In this document: one piece after another, positions 54,775-61,163 of the stretch
How the letters are laid out: every line of letters begins with the position of its first letter
How positions within the stretch are numbered: the stretch's first letter is position 1
Source: Geotoga petraea
GTDB taxonomy: Bacteria > Thermotogota > Thermotogae > Petrotogales > Petrotogaceae
Length of the DNA: 64,000 bases
Assembly (NCBI RefSeq): GCF_900102615.1
Contig: NZ_FMYV01000002.1
Span: forward strand, 1-64,000
Direction: 5' to 3'
The notes under the pieces: model-generated
Told to the model about the DNA's origin: nothing
The model's input: the letters and a program-made list of their open reading frames with translations, nothing else
The model's database searches: none
Program-made: the position numbers and the translations under genes

Positions 54775-56439
54775 TTATTTTGTCATGGTTTCTATATCTT
54801 CTTCTACAGAATTTATTGTTGAAAGTTCAAATTTTTCAATAACAACTTTTGCAACATTTTCTGATAAGAATGCTGGAAGTTTAGGTCCTAATTTTATTCC
54901 TTTTACTCCCAAGTACAATAAAGCTAATAATACGGTAACAGCTTTTTGTTCGTACCAAGCTATATTGTATTCTATTGGTAAATCATTTATATCATCCAAT
55001 TCAAAAGCTTCTTTTAATTTAAGTGCTGTGACTGCTAATGAGTATGAATCATTACATTGACCTGCATCTAATACTCTTGGTATACCACCTATATCGCCAA
55101 GATCTAATTTGTTGTATCTGTATTTTGCACAACCAGCTGTTAAAATTACATTGTCTTTTGGTAATTGAGATGCAAAGTCCGTGTAGTAATCTCTTTCTTT
55201 ACGTCTGCCATCACATCCAGCCATTACAAAGAATTTCTTTATATCCCCATTTTTAATTGCATCAATTACTTTGTCGGTAACTTGGGCTATTTGGTTGTGA
55301 GCAAACCCTATTGTTAATTCTTTTCCGTCTCTTTCAGGTAAATCTCCAATTTCTTTTGCTTTTTCTATTACAGCTGAGAAATCTTTTGGTTTTCCGTCAG
55401 CTCTATTTGGAATATGAGTAACATCATCAAATCCTACTAAACCAGTTGTAAATACTCTATCTTTGTAGCTTTCTTTTGGAGGGACAAGACAATTAGTAGT
55501 CATTAATATTGGACCACCGAAATCTTCGAACTCTTCTTTTTGTCTCCACCAAGATCCTCCCCAATTACCTGCTAAGTGTTTATATTTTTTTAACTCTGGG
55601 TACGCATTTGCTGGAAGCATTTCTCCATGTGTATAAACTTTTATTCCAGTTCCCTCTGTCTGTTTTAAAAGTTCTTCTAAGTCTAAAAGATCGTGACCAG
55701 AAATTAAAATACCAGGTGCTTTATGTGTTCCTGTAAATACTTTAGTTATTTCAGGATTTCCATAAGTCTTTGTATTAGCTTCATCCAACAGTGCCATAAC
55801 ATCAACAGCAATTTTTCCTGTTTCATTAACAAGAGAAATTAGTTCATCAACTGTAATATCTGTTCTAAGTGTTTCAGTTAATCCTTTTTCAATAAAATTC
55901 AAAATGTCATCGTTAGAAAAGTTTAACACATAAGCATGGTCTGCGTATGCAGCTATACCTTTTATACCATAAGTTACAAATTCTTTTAATGATTTTATAT
56001 CTTCATTCTCTTTTGCATGAACTCCTACTTCTGAACCTTTTAACTCATATATTTCAGTTCCACCCTTTTTATTCCATGTTGCTGCTTCTGGGACGTCTTC
56101 AGAAAAAGGTGAACCATTTTTTTCTTCGTATTTTCTTAAAAATTCCTCTTTAACTTCATCTCTAAATCTTAAAGCTTTTTCTATATATTCTGTAATTCTT
56201 TTTGCTGAGAAATTGGCGTTTGTTATTGTCGAAAATAAACCTTCAGCTACATAAAGATCTTTTTCTTCATCAACAATACCAATATCTTTTCCTTTTTGTA
56301 GCCAGTATGATAGACCCTTTAATGACCAAATTAACATATCCTGTAAATTTGCTACATCTGCTGGTTTTCCACACATACCAACAACTGTACAACCTTCATT
56401 TTTCGCTGCTTCCTCACATTGATAACAAAACATGTTCAT
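54775..56439 (-). CDS. hcp: Hydroxylamine reductase / hybrid-cluster protein
   Basis: This 554-residue hybrid-cluster protein has an N-terminal [21 protein letters not shown] (Cys 5, 8, 17, 23) in the spacing of strict anaerobes. Further cluster ligands lie in TNCLVPP, AGCDGRR and [10 protein letters not shown]. Hcp reduces nitric oxide and hydroxylamine and protects against nitrosative stress. It lies 21 bp after the DUF438 gene and is probably co-transcribed with it. AGGTG precedes the ATG. Confidence 0.96.
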
Positions 56440-56460
56440 AAAAACACCTCCACAAAATTA

Positions 56461-57651
56461 TTATTTTTCATCATAAATTCTTTTTTCTCCTTCAATTTCT
56501 TGAATGGGTTTTATATCTTGAGTAATTTCTACAGTACCTAAATATTCTCCATCTGTATTTCTAACTGCAAAATATCTTATATATACAAAATTATCTCCCA
56601 ATTTTATCCAAAAATCAGCGTTATCTCTTTCTCCAGATTTGAAATCAGAAACAATCTTTTCAACAATATCAACAGATTTTTGAGGGTGACAATTATGCAC
56701 CTTTCTTCCAATGATGGCTCTACTTCTTGGAAAGAATCTTTCCTTTCCTTCAGAAAAATATTTAACTCTATCATTAGCATCTACAAACGTTATATCAAAA
56801 GGTATTGTATTCAAAATACTCATTAATTCTTCTGCACTAAAAGAACCACTAGGTAATTTTATTCCTTCAGAGTTAACTTCTGTTACTTCATCTTTTTTTA
56901 TATCAAGTTTTTCTGGTTTGTGAGCTATGTATTTAAAATCATCAAACTGATTTCTAACTTCGTACCACTCTTGTTCTTCTAGAAGTTTTAAAGCAGTAGG
57001 AAATAATACAGAATGTTCTTTATAAATGTGGTTTGCAAACATTTCATTTAATACAACTATCTTTTTTAATAAATCATCGTTTAATGATTTCATTTCTCTT
57101 TTGTCTAAAATACTTTTTATTTCTTTTATTAATTCTCTTAATTGATCATGTTCTTTCCACATTATTGCAGGGGGTTGTTCTATCCCATATTTTTCTAAAT
57201 ATGGGAATAGAACGTTTTCTTCTTTGATAAAATAATTTTCAGCATCTGTAATATCTTCAAGGGTTTTTCCAAGAGTTTTTAATTTATTAAAATCTAAATC
57301 AGCTTTATTTGAGATAATTTCTTTAGTTATTTTTCTTAAATCATCTGATTTTTCTAACAAAAAATCATGTTCTTTCATCAAAATATCAATTGGATGCCAA
57401 GCAGGAACATTTATATCTTCTTGTTTTATGTAATCTCTAAAAAGTTCTAAATGTACATCACAAACTGATTGTATATCATCAACATTTATAGATTCGTTTT
57501 CAATTAATTCTTGTTCAACTTTAGCTATTTCATCTGCTGAGAGATTACTTATAGCTTCTTTTAGCTCTTTTCTGATACTATCTGTATTATCTTTTTTGGA
57601 TCTTATAATTAGATCCTTTAAATAATCTTTTTTATTAAACAATTCGCTCAT
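56461..57651 (-). CDS. DUF438 / hemerythrin-like / PAS domain protein
   Basis: This protein of about 396 residues has an N-terminal DUF438 helical domain (KDYLKDLIIRSKK...ISNLSADEIAKVEQEL). A hemerythrin HHE region follows, with iron-ligand style histidines (LMKEHDFLL, YFIKEENVLFPYLE, MWKEHDQLRELI, ANHIYKEHSVLFPTAL). The C-terminal PAS is VTFVDANDRVKYFSEG. The order matches a family linked to NO or oxygen sensing in anaerobes. I chose the ATG at 57651, nine bases after AGGAGG; the upstream extension would cross the promoter and operator. It is the first gene of the unit with hcp. Confidence 0.92.
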   Translation of the reverse strand: MSELFNKKDYLKDLIIRSKKDNTDSIRKELKEAISNLSADEIAKVEQELIENESINVDDIQSVCDVHLELFRDYIKQEDINVPAWHPIDILMKEHDFLLEKSDDLRKITKEIISNKADLDFNKLKTLGKTLEDITDAENYFIKEENVLFPYLEKYGIEQPPAIMWKEHDQLRELIKEIKSILDKREMKSLNDDLLKKIVVLNEMFANHIYKEHSVLFPTALKLLEEQEWYEVRNQFDDFKYIAHKPEKLDIKKDEVTEVNSEGIKLPSGSFSAEELMSILNTIPFDITFVDANDRVKYFSEGKERFFPRSRAIIGRKVHNCHPQKSVDIVEKIVSDFKSGERDNADFWIKLGDNFVYIRYFAVRNTDGEYLGTVEITQDIKPIQEIEGEKRIYDEK

Positions 57652-57691
57652 TTTGTTATTCCTCCTAAAGTTATTTATAATCTTCACTAAT

Positions 57692-57697
57692 ATAATA
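57692..57697 (-). promoter_or_regulatory. -10 box of the DUF438-hcp unit
   Basis: TATTAT on the minus strand, predicting a start near 57685. No good -35 is present, and the Crp/Fnr palindrome is centred 41.5 bp upstream of that start. This is the class II activator arrangement. Confidence 0.5.
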
Positions 57698-57718
57698 AAA
57701 TATTTATTCAAATAAGTC

Positions 57719-57734
57719 GGTAACATATGTTACC
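57719..57734. promoter_or_regulatory. Crp/Fnr-type operator between DUF438-hcp and the regulator gene
   Basis: GGTAACATATGTTACC is a perfect 16-bp palindrome between the divergent Crp/Fnr gene and the DUF438-hcp unit. Its position suggests activation of hcp and autoregulation of the regulator. Confidence 0.65.
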
Positions 57735-57737
57735 ATG

Positions 57738-57766
57738 TTTAAAATATCCGACAATTATAGTATAAT
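57738..57766 (+). promoter_or_regulatory. Promoter of the Crp/Fnr gene
   Basis: -35 TTTAAA (57738-57743), a 17-bp spacer, -10 TATAAT (57761-57766). The transcript would start near 57773, just before the GGAGGTGG ribosome site. Confidence 0.55.
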
Positions 57767-57787
57767 TTGGTTTGGGAGGTGGTTTAA

Positions 57788-58474
57788 ATTCATCCAGTAT
57801 TGAATCAGGTATCAAAAATACCATTATTTAAAAATTTAACTGTAGAAGAGATAAAGTCATTAACTTTGGATAATTCTTTCAAATCTGTCGATTTTGAAAA
57901 AGATAGTATTATAAAAAGCCGAGGAGAAAAACTTGATCATTTAATGGTTCTTCTTTTTGGGGAAGTAAAAACTCAAATGTCTGATTTTAACGGTAAAGTT
58001 ATTCAAATTGAAAGATTAAAGTCACCAACGATGCTTGCCATTGGTTTTGTATTTCAAACAAACAATATTTTACCAGTTGATATAATAACAACTAAAAAAA
58101 GTAGTGTGTTGTTTATAAAAAAAGATACTTTAATAGAATTTTCTTGTAAAAAGAAAAAATTTTTAGAAAATCTATTGAATCATATTGGTGGAAAGATGAA
58201 TTTTCTTTCTCAAAAACTATGGATAACCTCTTTGAAAACTATAAGAGAAAAAATATTATTTTATTTACTTCAACTATATAATCAAAACAATCATAAAGAA
58301 AGATTCGAAATGCCAGTAAAAATTGAAGAATTATCCCTATTATTTGGAGTAACTCGCCCATCTTTATCAAGAGCTTTATCAGAATTAGAAAAAGAAGATT
58401 TTTTTAGAAGGAATGGAAAAATTATTGTTTTGAATATTAATAAATTGAAAGAAAAAGATTATAATATGATATAA
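57788..58474 (+). CDS. Crp/Fnr-family transcriptional regulator, probable ATT start
   Basis: This protein of about 228 residues has an N-terminal cyclic-nucleotide-binding-like barrel (IPLFKNLTVEEIKSL, GEKLDHLMVLLFGEVK) and a C-terminal winged helix (IEELSLLFGVTRPSLSRALSELEKE). No conserved cysteine cluster like FNR is seen, so a heme- or ligand-sensing HcpR/DNR type is possible. An in-frame TAA lies at 57785-57787. The only start with correct spacing from GGAGGTGG (57775-57782) is ATT at 57788; the next candidate, TTG at 57800, is 20 bases from it. It is divergent from hcp and likely its regulator. Confidence 0.85.
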   Translation: MHPVLNQVSKIPLFKNLTVEEIKSLTLDNSFKSVDFEKDSIIKSRGEKLDHLMVLLFGEVKTQMSDFNGKVIQIERLKSPTMLAIGFVFQTNNILPVDIITTKKSSVLFIKKDTLIEFSCKKKKFLENLLNHIGGKMNFLSQKLWITSLKTIREKILFYLLQLYNQNNHKERFEMPVKIEELSLLFGVTRPSLSRALSELEKEDFFRRNGKIIVLNINKLKEKDYNMI

Positions 58475-58475: not shown

Positions 58476-58512
58476 TAAAATGGTTTTAAAAATTAATATA
58501 GAGGTGATAATT

Positions 58513-59373
58513 ATGAAAAAAACCATTTTATTTACAACTCTAATGTTATTGATTTCTTTGTTGTCATTTTCAACCTTAATAAATGAGGAAGGGAATGTTT
58601 ATAACCTAAATCTTGAATATGAAAATGGGTGGGTAAAAGTATTAAGTCATACTCTACAATTTGGAGGAAATGGAACTAATTTTGACTTTGTGGAACAAGG
58701 TGGACAAGATATACTATTTCCATTTGAAAGGTTTACCGCAGATTTAGAACTGTTTGATAAACATCATGTAGTTTTCTTATATCAACCATTAACTGTAGAG
58801 ACAAAAGTTCAGCAAAGAGATGATTTGGTTTTTAATGATACAACATTTGCTTCAACAACTAATGCGGATTCTGTTTTGAATGTTAAATACGGTTTTCCAT
58901 TTTGGAGAGTTTCATATTTATATGATTTTTTAGAAAATGAAGATTACTATTTATCAGCGGGATTATCATTACAACTAAGAAATGCTTCTATTATTTTTGA
59001 AAATTACGATGGTAGCAAAGTTACAGTTAACCAGAACTTAGGACCAGTTCCTATAATTAAAATTAAGGCTGCATATTTCTTTGATAATGGAATTTATTTA
59101 GAAACTGATGCCGACGGATTTTATGCAAGTAGCGCTTTTATAAATGGTGCTGATTTTAATTTCGAAGGATCTGTTTTCGATATTTCGGGTAGAGTTGGGT
59201 TTGAATTAAAAGATTCTTTGAATACATTTATAAATATTAGATATTTGGGTGGCACAGCAAATGGTACTTCTCAATATGAAAGTACTAGATGGAGTGAATC
59301 TGGTCAATCAGAAAATTATACTTCAAATATTTTAAATACTGCTACTTTCACACTTGGTTTTGAAATTAAATAA
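58513..59373 (+). CDS. Secreted protein, probable outer-membrane beta-barrel
   Basis: This protein of about 286 residues has a signal peptide (MKKTILFTTLMLLISLLSF). It is mostly alternating hydrophobic/polar strands with aromatic girdle residues (VLNVKYGFPFWRVSYLYDF, YLSAGLSLQLRNASIIF) and a final strand TFTLGFEIK. This suggests a small outer-membrane barrel of about ten strands. I recognise no family. GAGGTG lies before the ATG; an in-frame ATG 11 codons upstream has no ribosome site. It ends at a UUCG-loop terminator. Confidence 0.75.
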   Translation: MKKTILFTTLMLLISLLSFSTLINEEGNVYNLNLEYENGWVKVLSHTLQFGGNGTNFDFVEQGGQDILFPFERFTADLELFDKHHVVFLYQPLTVETKVQQRDDLVFNDTTFASTTNADSVLNVKYGFPFWRVSYLYDFLENEDYYLSAGLSLQLRNASIIFENYDGSKVTVNQNLGPVPIIKIKAAYFFDNGIYLETDADGFYASSAFINGADFNFEGSVFDISGRVGFELKDSLNTFINIRYLGGTANGTSQYESTRWSESGQSENYTSNILNTATFTLGFEIK

Positions 59374-59393: not shown

Positions 59394-59421
59394 AGGTGAG
59401 CTTTCGAGCTCACCTTTTTTA
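59394..59421 (+). terminator. Terminator of the barrel-like protein gene
   Basis: Stem aggtgagct / agctcacct closed by a ttcg tetraloop and followed by six Ts. Confidence 0.88.
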
Positions 59422-59543: not shown

Positions 59544-59572
59544 TTGACAAATAAAAAATATAGGTATATAAT
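59544..59572 (+). promoter_or_regulatory. Perfect consensus sigma-70-type promoter of the microprotein operon
   Basis: -35 TTGACA (59544-59549), a 17-bp spacer, -10 TATAAT (59567-59572). It is the only fully consensus promoter I found in the window, preceded by an A/T-rich stretch. Start predicted near 59579. Confidence 0.85.
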
Positions 59573-59578
59573 AATAAT

Positions 59579-59619
59579 GAAATTAAAAATATTAAGCAGA
59601 AAATTAAAAATATTAAACA
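59579..59619 (+). repeat. Tandem direct repeat in the 5' leader of the microprotein operon
   Basis: Two adjacent copies, gaaattaaaaatattaagca (59579-59598) and gaaaattaaaaatattaaaca (59599-59619), differ at about two positions. They begin at the predicted transcription start. Confidence 0.6.
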
Positions 59620-59662
59620 AAAACTTATTTATGATATTAAAAAATCAAAAGGAGGAAATGAA

Positions 59663-59767
59663 ATGATGAGAAAACAGTTTATAAGAAAAGACTTTATGAA
59701 GAATTCTTTTGACAGACTTGCTGAGGAAAATTTAGAGGTATTACAACATAGTATGAGAATATTTTAA
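59663..59767 (+). CDS. Microprotein A of a three-gene tandem family (34 aa)
   Basis: This 34-residue protein begins MMRKQFIRKDFMKNSFDRL and ends MRIF. GGAGG lies seven bases before the ATG. It shares the block NSFDRLAEEN, then a hydrophobic-xx-hydrophobic-Q pattern and a C-terminal F with microprotein B. The N-terminus is basic and the middle acidic; a single amphipathic helix is likely. There is no signal peptide or membrane helix. It is too short for default gene callers. No function is known to me. Confidence 0.8.
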   Translation: MMRKQFIRKDFMKNSFDRLAEENLEVLQHSMRIF

Positions 59768-59779
59768 GGAGGGAATGAC

Positions 59780-59884
59780 ATGTTTAGAAAAAATGATTTG
59801 AGAAGAGATTTATTTGAAAATTCTTTTGACAGACTTGCTGAAGAAAATATTAAAGTACTCCAAGAGAGTTATAAACTATTTTAA
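59780..59884 (+). CDS. Microprotein B of the tandem family (34 aa)
   Basis: This 34-residue protein begins MFRKNDLRRDLFENSFDRL and ends SYKLF. It is 12 bases after A's stop, with AAGGAGGG before the ATG. A and B have the same length and share NSFDRLAEEN exactly. The nucleotide differences fall mainly in third positions within that block, indicating selection on the protein. Likely co-translated with A. Confidence 0.8.
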   Translation: MFRKNDLRRDLFENSFDRLAEENIKVLQESYKLF

Positions 59885-59902
59885 AAATAGGGGGGATGGG
59901 AT

Positions 59903-60016
59903 ATGATTATAAAAAGAAAAAACAAGGCTAGATCGTACTACGCTGGATTTGATAGATTGGACAATGAATTGAATAAAATTTGGATGGAAAATTCAAGAAG
60001 AATAAAGAATATATAA
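59903..60016 (+). CDS. Microprotein C of the tandem family (37 aa)
   Basis: This 37-residue protein begins MIIKRKNKARSYYAGFDRL and ends RRIKNI. The core GFDRLDNELNKIW aligns with SFDRLAEEN-xxVLQ of A and B, keeping F-D-R-L and the acidic stretch. It starts 18 bases after B's stop behind AGGGGGG. It is more basic overall than A and B. The terminator at 60039-60075 ends the unit. Confidence 0.78.
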   Translation: MIIKRKNKARSYYAGFDRLDNELNKIWMENSRRIKNI

Positions 60017-60038
60017 GTAAATATATTCTCACCCAAAA

Positions 60039-60075
60039 AAAAGAAGACATCTTTATAAGCAAGATGTCTTCTTTT
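60039..60075. terminator. Bidirectional terminator after the microprotein operon
   Basis: A 15-bp perfect stem (aaaagaagacatctt / aagatgtcttctttt) with a 7-nt loop; A/T-runs on both sides. It serves the microproteins and the convergent alanyl-tRNA editing gene. Confidence 0.88.
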
Positions 60076-60077
60076 CT

Positions 60078-61163
60078 TTATATAAGGTCAATAATATTTT
60101 CAAAAGAAATATTTCCTTTGATTTGTCCATTATTTTTTCCTCCGCCACCTTTGGTGGAGTGTTCATTATTTATAGATTTAATTAGGGTTCCAACATTGAC
60201 TGAATCAGATTGGATTTTATAAGTGTCATTATCTTTCAAAATGAAAATAAAATTTTCTTTATCAAAATTTTTATAAACATATTCGAAAGATTCATCTTCT
60301 TTTTCAAGATAGAAAATATTAATATTATTAACTATTTTAAAAGGTTCAAGATTTTTTATTAAATTATTTGCTTTGTAAGAATATAGATTATCAAGTTCTT
60401 TTTTTTGAATATCGTTTTCTTCAATGATTTTAGTAATTTTAGAAACGAAATCTTCTTTGTTTGTGTTTAGAATAGTTCCTAGTTCATTTAATATGGATTC
60501 ACTACTTTTTAAATAATTAAGAACTCTTTCACCAGCAAGAAAATAAATTCTCATATAACCATTTTTAATATTTTCAGTTTTTATTATTTTTATCATGTTT
60601 ATTTCTAATGTATTTTTTACATGAAAACCACCACAAGCAGAGGCATCTAAGTTTTCGATGTAAATAACTCTAATATCTTCAGTAATTTTTTCTGAAATAT
60701 CTTTCCTCAGGGATAAATTTTCTGCTTCAGATCTATCATAATTCTTTTCATAGACATCGAGATTTTCATTAACTTTCTCATTTGATATGTCTTCAATCTT
60801 ATTGATTAAATCTCCAGATATTCTTTTGTCAATATCTATAGTTGAGTATTCTTCAGACATTCTAAATCCAACTGTATTTAGACCATATGAATCTTTCATT
60901 ATTGCAGAAATTATATGTTGAGCGGTATGTTGTTTTGAAATATCTTTTTGATTGTTCTTATCTAATTTTATTTGATTTTCTCCAACATTTAATTCTCTAT
61001 CTACTAATATATAGTTTTCATCAACATATTTTATATTTGCTTTATCTATTTGTCCTCGGTCTCCTAATTGACCGCCTTTTCCATCTGGATATAAGGGGTT
61101 TTTTTCTACAAATATTTTGTAATTATTTTTTTCTTTTTCCACTTTTAATATATTAACAATCAT
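60078..61163 (-). CDS. Alanyl-tRNA editing protein (AlaX-type, with DHHA1 domain)
   Basis: This 361-residue stand-alone relative of the AlaRS editing domain hydrolyses Ser- or Gly-tRNA(Ala). Zinc/editing ligands are HTAQH near residue 79 and CGGFHV (C and H) near 180. NPLYPDGKGGQLGDRG matches the AlaRS editing start. The C-terminus has the DHHA1-like glycine-rich STKGGGGKNNGQIKG. The length matches the long AlaX-L group. It is the last gene of a minus-strand run. Confidence 0.9.
   Translation of the reverse strand: MIVNILKVEKEKNNYKIFVEKNPLYPDGKGGQLGDRGQIDKANIKYVDENYILVDRELNVGENQIKLDKNNQKDISKQHTAQHIISAIMKDSYGLNTVGFRMSEEYSTIDIDKRISGDLINKIEDISNEKVNENLDVYEKNYDRSEAENLSLRKDISEKITEDIRVIYIENLDASACGGFHVKNTLEINMIKIIKTENIKNGYMRIYFLAGERVLNYLKSSESILNELGTILNTNKEDFVSKITKIIEENDIQKKELDNLYSYKANNLIKNLEPFKIVNNINIFYLEKEDESFEYVYKNFDKENFIFILKDNDTYKIQSDSVNVGTLIKSINNEHSTKGGGGKNNGQIKGNISFENIIDLI

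Follow-up and report, generated by a model that had tools for sequence, protein, structure and literature searches.

The window, a 64-kb stretch of Geotoga petraea DNA, carries three tandem short open reading frames (here called A, B, and C) that are paralogous protein genes of an undescribed microprotein family. The family is apparently confined to the Petrotogaceae as far as we searched, and comparison of the aligned orthologues indicates that it is under purifying selection across genera. Our preferred reading of its function, to which we assign a probability of roughly 0.3, is that the products are abundant, trans-acting helical microproteins that would serve under translation-inhibitor or xenobiotic stress, with the ribosome or RNA as the target.

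A, B, and C lie on the forward strand behind a −35 hexamer TTGACA (59544 to 59549) and a −10 hexamer TATAAT (59567 to 59572), which were located by a sequence pattern search and are separated by a 17-bp spacer. The ensuing 5′ region (59573 to 59662, about 85 to 90 nt) is AT-rich and essentially unstructured (−2.6 kcal/mol). ORF A (59663 to 59767; 34 aa, MMRKQFIRKDFMKNSFDRLAEENLEVLQHSMRIF) has the Shine-Dalgarno sequence AAGGAGG at 59649 to 59655 and matches the family profile with an E value of 3.9e-11, A itself being part of that profile. ORF B (59780 to 59884; 34 aa, MFRKNDLRRDLFENSFDRLAEENIKVLQESYKLF), supported by its translation and a profile match, has the Shine-Dalgarno sequence AAGGAGGG at 59766 to 59773, which overlaps the stop codon of A. 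ORF C (59903 to 60016; 37 aa, MIIKRKNKARSYYAGFDRLDNELNKIWMENSRRIKNI) follows AGGGGGG at 59889 to 59895, is the family-typical member, and is predicted to be helical throughout. All three Shine-Dalgarno sequences were read directly, and A and B are 59% identical (E = 1.8e-8). A hairpin terminator at 60039 to 60075 (given without strand; folding energy −17.7 kcal/mol, z −6.0) is probably common to A-B-C and the convergent gene downstream of C (60078 to 61163, reverse strand), whose AlaX-like product has a tRNA_SAD domain. The upstream gene has its own terminator at 59394 to 59415. The flanking terminators and the convergent neighbor therefore set A-B-C apart as a transcription unit of its own, about 500 nt long, and no exporter gene follows it in the window. 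All of this bears out the preliminary description, which had reported the three ORFs with their lengths and translations, a strong Shine-Dalgarno sequence before each, their tandem paralogy, a single exact consensus promoter, and a strong terminator at the end.

The upstream gene (58480 to 59373) encodes a 297-aa probable outer-membrane beta-barrel, for which a Pfam search returned no match and which is present in only 4 of the 21 family genomes (G000, G004, G007, and G011). Elsewhere in the window, positions 54775 to 58474 hold a prismane-family (hybrid cluster protein) gene, a gene for a DUF438-hemerythrin-PAS protein, and a divergent Crp-type regulator, which together look like a nitrosative-stress cluster.

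The promoter of A-B-C is the sole site in the 64 kb that matches the consensus at 12 of 12 positions, where shuffled sequences predict 0.03. Genome-wide, there are 27 exact TTGACA-17-TATAAT sites, compared with 3 for a reversed-pattern control. About 10 of these 27 precede tRNAs, and others precede the genes for L32, S15, ACP, and Hsp20 and a Clp-type ATPase operon, all named by recognizing the N termini of the proteins. The 29-nt window promoter differs at only 2 positions from a tRNA-gene promoter on contig C9 of the same genome; we rejected the idea of a second microprotein behind this near-identical promoter, as it drives the tRNA. Near-consensus promoters and strong Shine-Dalgarno sequences are normal in Thermotoga maritima (PMC3636130). 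Because both are common in Thermotogota, the perfect promoter of the window is less exceptional than it sounds, but it is still rare in its genome. It is fair to infer from its sequence that A-B-C is highly transcribed, since exact promoters otherwise serve genes of the tRNA and ribosomal type.

Promoters at or near the sigma-A consensus characterize the family: those of the microproteins match at 12 of 12 positions in about 10 genomes and at 10 or 11 in most others. A strong Shine-Dalgarno sequence likewise accompanies most copies. In ten genomes of four genera (for example, L112 to L121 and L156), the microprotein start lies 50 to 51 nt beyond the −10 box, and the sequence between them has drifted despite this fixed length. 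Spacers of 19 bp occur in the microprotein promoters of L152 (G000:C9) and of L122 and L157 (G004). We also observed an exact consensus promoter at L182 (G000:C8, near 56400 to 57300) before a small acidic ORF of 45 codons (MDKKKNIVLKAENISEEIYEDIFEQYFDSEEEDIIGGEENEIESK) that precedes a Clp-type ATPase gene.

Searches with single peptides and with a three-peptide profile found no significant orthologue outside the window's genome. A weak match in G008 (E = 0.16) was a 37-aa ORF containing SYYTGFDQLSDEL...ENIRKL, with TTGACA upstream and a GGGGG Shine-Dalgarno sequence, and it is clearly related to C. A two-sequence profile built from C and this relative found members across the Petrotogaceae, most of them new at that step, and it is this search that provides the independent evidence for a family. 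The iterated profile matched 20 of the 21 Petrotogaceae genomes at E values below 1e-4, its values (to 1e-18) being inflated for sequences already in the profile. In the remaining genome, G011, the best match (E = 0.012) is one of three consecutive short ORFs that immediately precede an ABC exporter, and we counted it as a member by inspection and not by score. The profile-searched set comprised 103 Thermotogota genomes, and the 82 outside the Petrotogaceae gave no convincing match. Outside Thermotogota, the search consisted of two pattern scans of genome contigs, the second of which returned one contig from a Thermotogota MAG (L158), equal in length to the contig that carries the G009 match. 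Phages, viral contigs, and plasmids searched with several members yielded no relatives. Two kinds of early match were discarded: one in G038 was a CRISPR-like array read as protein, and those inside large proteins were short, chance-looking FDxLxEE-type helices.

The preliminary description knew of no described family, and Pfam, NCBIfam, PHROGs, and PDB likewise gave no significant match over the domain. The sole PDB match below an E value of 0.001, to a sperm microtubule protein, consists of two 17-residue ENxRR matches with an E value of 8 each alone and was dismissed. In NCBIfam, the first 16 positions of NF040898, an LDCC-motif putative metal-binding miniprotein, align with ORF A (E = 0.089, 12.6 bits against a cutoff of 30); membership was rejected, given that the LDCC motif is absent, A, B, and C have no cysteine, and only 1 of 21 members matches. 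Literature searches on small proteins of Marinitoga, highly expressed Defluviitoga genes, and small peptides of Thermotogae returned no description of the family.

Members are 28 to 41 aa long and share one layout: an initial methionine, a K/R-rich tail whose sequence is itself not conserved, SYYxGFDxL, a short variable linker, and ELxxxxLExxRR. The aligned core reads SYYxGF[D/E/N]x[LIM], a linker varying in length by 1 to 2 residues, and EL-x4-LE-x2-R[R/K], followed by a short C-terminal end. SYY has been lost from A and B, which are divergent paralogues and retain SFDRLAEEN. The FDRL core noted earlier is only part of a longer motif that is best seen in C. Nearly all members carry a net positive charge, mostly +2 to +6, all have a strongly hydrophilic composition (GRAVY −0.5 to −1.6) in which acidic residues (D/E) are conserved, and none has a hydrophobic membrane or signal segment. 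The cores of A, B, and C are significantly amphipathic (P = 0.002 to 0.007), those of many relatives weakly so. AlphaFold (AF2) predicted a single helix over residues 2 to 36 with a mean pLDDT of 80 from an input of only four sequences, and the core contains a variable linker, which makes one rigid helix less likely. The products are probably mostly helical, soluble, and abundant.

Tandem sets are recurrent, with three ORFs in the window, G007, and G011 and two in G010 and G005. The window's genome holds a fourth copy (contig C9, 63686 to 63808) behind TTGACA-19-TATAAT, the spacer of which contains the dyad TAGAGTTTACTCTA. We take this dyad to resemble a MerR-type operator, which suggests that a MerR-type activator may control some microprotein copies. 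At two G004 loci, on C7 (L122) and C18 (L127), family members are accompanied by additional tandem ORFs (MFKIFKKKKVSSLYYDPRENYKYENSYIDVFRLY and MKEKRKNIRVLDRLDINREIVWEFIRHI) that are probably very divergent paralogues.

Tiny ORFs are common in AT-rich DNA, and A, B, and C could in principle be chance ORFs in a strongly transcribed noncoding RNA. Comparison of the orthologues contradicts this for the family as a whole, and we rejected it as very improbable. The peptides are conserved across genera, and codon positions 1 and 2 are 0.81 and 0.83 identical among orthologues versus 0.63 at position 3, showing the third-position drift of coding sequence. Orthologue dN/dS values (NG86) are mostly 0.08 to 0.5, each estimated from few sites, and in most pairs identity falls to about 20 to 60% in the 3′ flanks of these loci. 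Relatives are intact in every searched Petrotogaceae genome, free of the frameshifts or stops that the preliminary description had named as grounds for doubt. Three ORFs in series, each preceded by a Shine-Dalgarno sequence, also speak against chance, as do the profile E values and the absence of any Rfam match in the window. Selection on the protein had previously been argued from A and B; that argument by itself is thin because their dN/dS is 0.70, and the case rests on the orthologues.

We next consider the genes around these loci. Stand-alone units comprise the window, the C9 copy, and loci in G003, G004 (three loci), G006, G007 (the three tandem ORFs), G013, and G001, most with their own promoter and terminator. 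In about 5 of 13 to 14 distinct loci (g3, G008b, g6-MFS, g6-ABC, and G011), the microprotein genes directly precede drug-type exporters of the MFS or ABC class. The g6 genomes have an MFS_1/MFS_3 transporter, and the exporter or next start lies 10 to 17 nt after the microprotein stop. In the g3 genomes, MFS or ABC genes begin about 300 nt after the microprotein, at a locus anchored beside a divergent dus-like gene; in the G008 counterpart, an amidohydrolase-like gene replaces the dus-like gene, and the second G008 copy precedes another MFS gene. Second copies in G010, G013, and G015 precede an ABC exporter, represented in G013 and G015 by a pair of neighboring ABC genes, and the ABC exporter behind the three ORFs of G011 resembles these. 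MFS and ABC-exporter genes number about 24 in a genome, for which we assumed a total of roughly 2,100 genes. On that basis, the binomial probability of such adjacency is about 1e-5 for 4 of 13 loci and 2e-7 for 5 of 13, values that flatter the link because the exporter category was picked after seeing the data. A GC-rich repeat (CCTTAAATGGGTGGGCAGCGGGGCGAAGGGG) and its variants lie between the microprotein and exporter genes of the AT-rich g3 genomes, and the repeat also occurs before other MFS genes (L113, L114, L115, L117, L119, L206, and L207).

Their position as the first cistron before an exporter in several genera raises the question of whether the microproteins bind exporters or the membrane directly, with stand-alone copies serving distant exporters. 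The window's genome has nine ABC_membrane and fourteen MFS_1 matches that could be such distant partners, and the significant amphipathicity of a subset including A, B, and C would suit a membrane contact. However, MFS and ABC exporters differ in fold and do not share an evident binding surface, and the microproteins lack a hydrophobic membrane segment. Orthologous MFS exporters also occur without an adjoining microprotein in five genomes (G000, G001, G004, G011, and G013), so that the exporter does not need the microprotein, and an obligate pairing of the two was rejected. We therefore regard a direct accessory role as unlikely.

The short g6 spacing, the strong constitutive promoters, which suit attenuators, and the precedent of BmrB, a small ORF ahead of the ABC multidrug exporter genes bmrCD in Bacillus subtilis (PMC4191407), raise the alternative that the ORFs are leaders: attenuation or translational coupling would make the exporters behind them respond to their translation and not to their product. 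A regulated gene on the same transcript is present at the g6, g3, G008b, and G011 loci but not in the window, where the neighbor is convergent and the transcript ends at a terminator, as do most stand-alone transcripts. A competing terminator and antiterminator involving the ORF is likewise missing from the unstructured 5′ region of the window.

Three micro-ABC operons of relatives do resemble bmrCD in having an attenuator of the translation-sensing type upstream. In G010, G013, and G015, a leader ORF of 29 to 35 codons lies ahead of the microprotein and ABC genes. Its Shine-Dalgarno region, which reads GGTTATCAC or GGGTATCAC, is able to base-pair with GTGATAACC within the leader, and one more copy of GGTTATCAC belongs to a terminator hairpin with T's after it. 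The competing elements GGTTATCAC, GTGATAACC, and GGGCTATGGTTATCACaCCATAGCCC occur at L153 (reverse strand), L154, and L155, and the three leader peptides have CDNLA[HQ]I in common. A similar hairpin stands at the contig end just upstream of the ORFs of G011. The predicted layout in G010, G013, and G015 is what would be expected of ribosome-sensing attenuation, which has been demonstrated experimentally for bmrCD (PMC4191407), and it looks like a putative translation-inhibitor sensor for the ABC exporter. The sensor there would be a different peptide, which would make the microprotein a regulated cistron. The bmrB ORF itself acts as the sensor and contains the terminator, whereas the microprotein is a separate cistron that comes after both leader and terminator. 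Unlike BmrB, it is conserved in amino acid sequence across genera and often stands without any exporter. The motif K/R-x-K/R causes macrolide stalling; its absence from A and B led us to reject stalling as the reason for the basic tail and further weakens the idea of a leader, which we consider improbable overall.

Tandem sets of two or three short paralogues without a leader, nearly all of them positively charged and several with an adjoining exporter, also recall leaderless bacteriocins such as garvicin KS, which has three peptides and a linked transporter (PMC6412029). The microproteins might accordingly be cargo, that is, leaderless cationic helical peptides secreted as bacteriocins or signals through a neighboring or distant MFS or ABC exporter. 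Their length and lack of a leader or signal fit this class, but their hydrophilic composition with conserved acidic residues does not match the cationic, hydrophobic, or membrane-active composition of leaderless bacteriocins, and they have no sequence similarity to the families searched. The family is present in all searched Petrotogaceae genomes and is not strain specific. No immunity-like gene adjoins the window operon, and linked exporters are found in other genomes only; these exporters have unrelated folds, and more than half of the distinct loci, the window included, lack an adjoining one. Export as cargo thus appears quite unlikely.

We return to an abundant microprotein that acts in trans under translation-inhibitor or xenobiotic stress. 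The products would act as soluble, mostly helical peptides whose conserved core would dock on one conserved partner, with the basic tail making further electrostatic contacts to RNA, the ribosome, or an anionic surface. The common theme would be stress and not a physical exporter partner, because copies precede structurally unrelated exporters and follow predicted attenuators in three genomes. The window triple would be expressed alone, apparently constitutively. We guess at the ribosome, RNA, or some similar shared target because MFS and ABC exporters offer no common fold to one peptide, and the evidence that may point to this particular target consists of the basic tail and the attenuator context. 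A broader version appears somewhat doubtful: a family-wide class, induced together with drug exporters in some species through attenuators that sense translation inhibitors and constitutive elsewhere, might protect or modulate the ribosome or another shared target as the small-protein arm of Petrotogaceae antibiotic tolerance. A precedent is peTrpL of Sinorhizobium, a very small trans-acting peptide in multidrug resistance that is linked to efflux (PMC7298713). It differs in being a trp attenuator leader with a different operon logic, and no sequence relation between the two was seen. Each of the functions offered in the preliminary description (an RNA or ribosome binder, a regulator, or a leaderless signal) could be right; our analysis adds to it the association with exporters in other genomes, an attenuator ahead of certain copies, a fourth copy in the genome, and the three-gene tandems in two other genomes.

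Small ORFs in resistance operons are otherwise known mainly as leader peptides. Should the microproteins prove to target the ribosome or exporters in trans, such operons would gain a new kind of component. The fact that a small-protein family that looks universal in the Petrotogaceae, with a sharp motif, promoters of the stable-RNA class, and repeated association with drug exporters, had gone undescribed suggests that a protein of apparently high abundance can escape annotation throughout a lineage. The microproteins probably do a real job in stress or drug tolerance.
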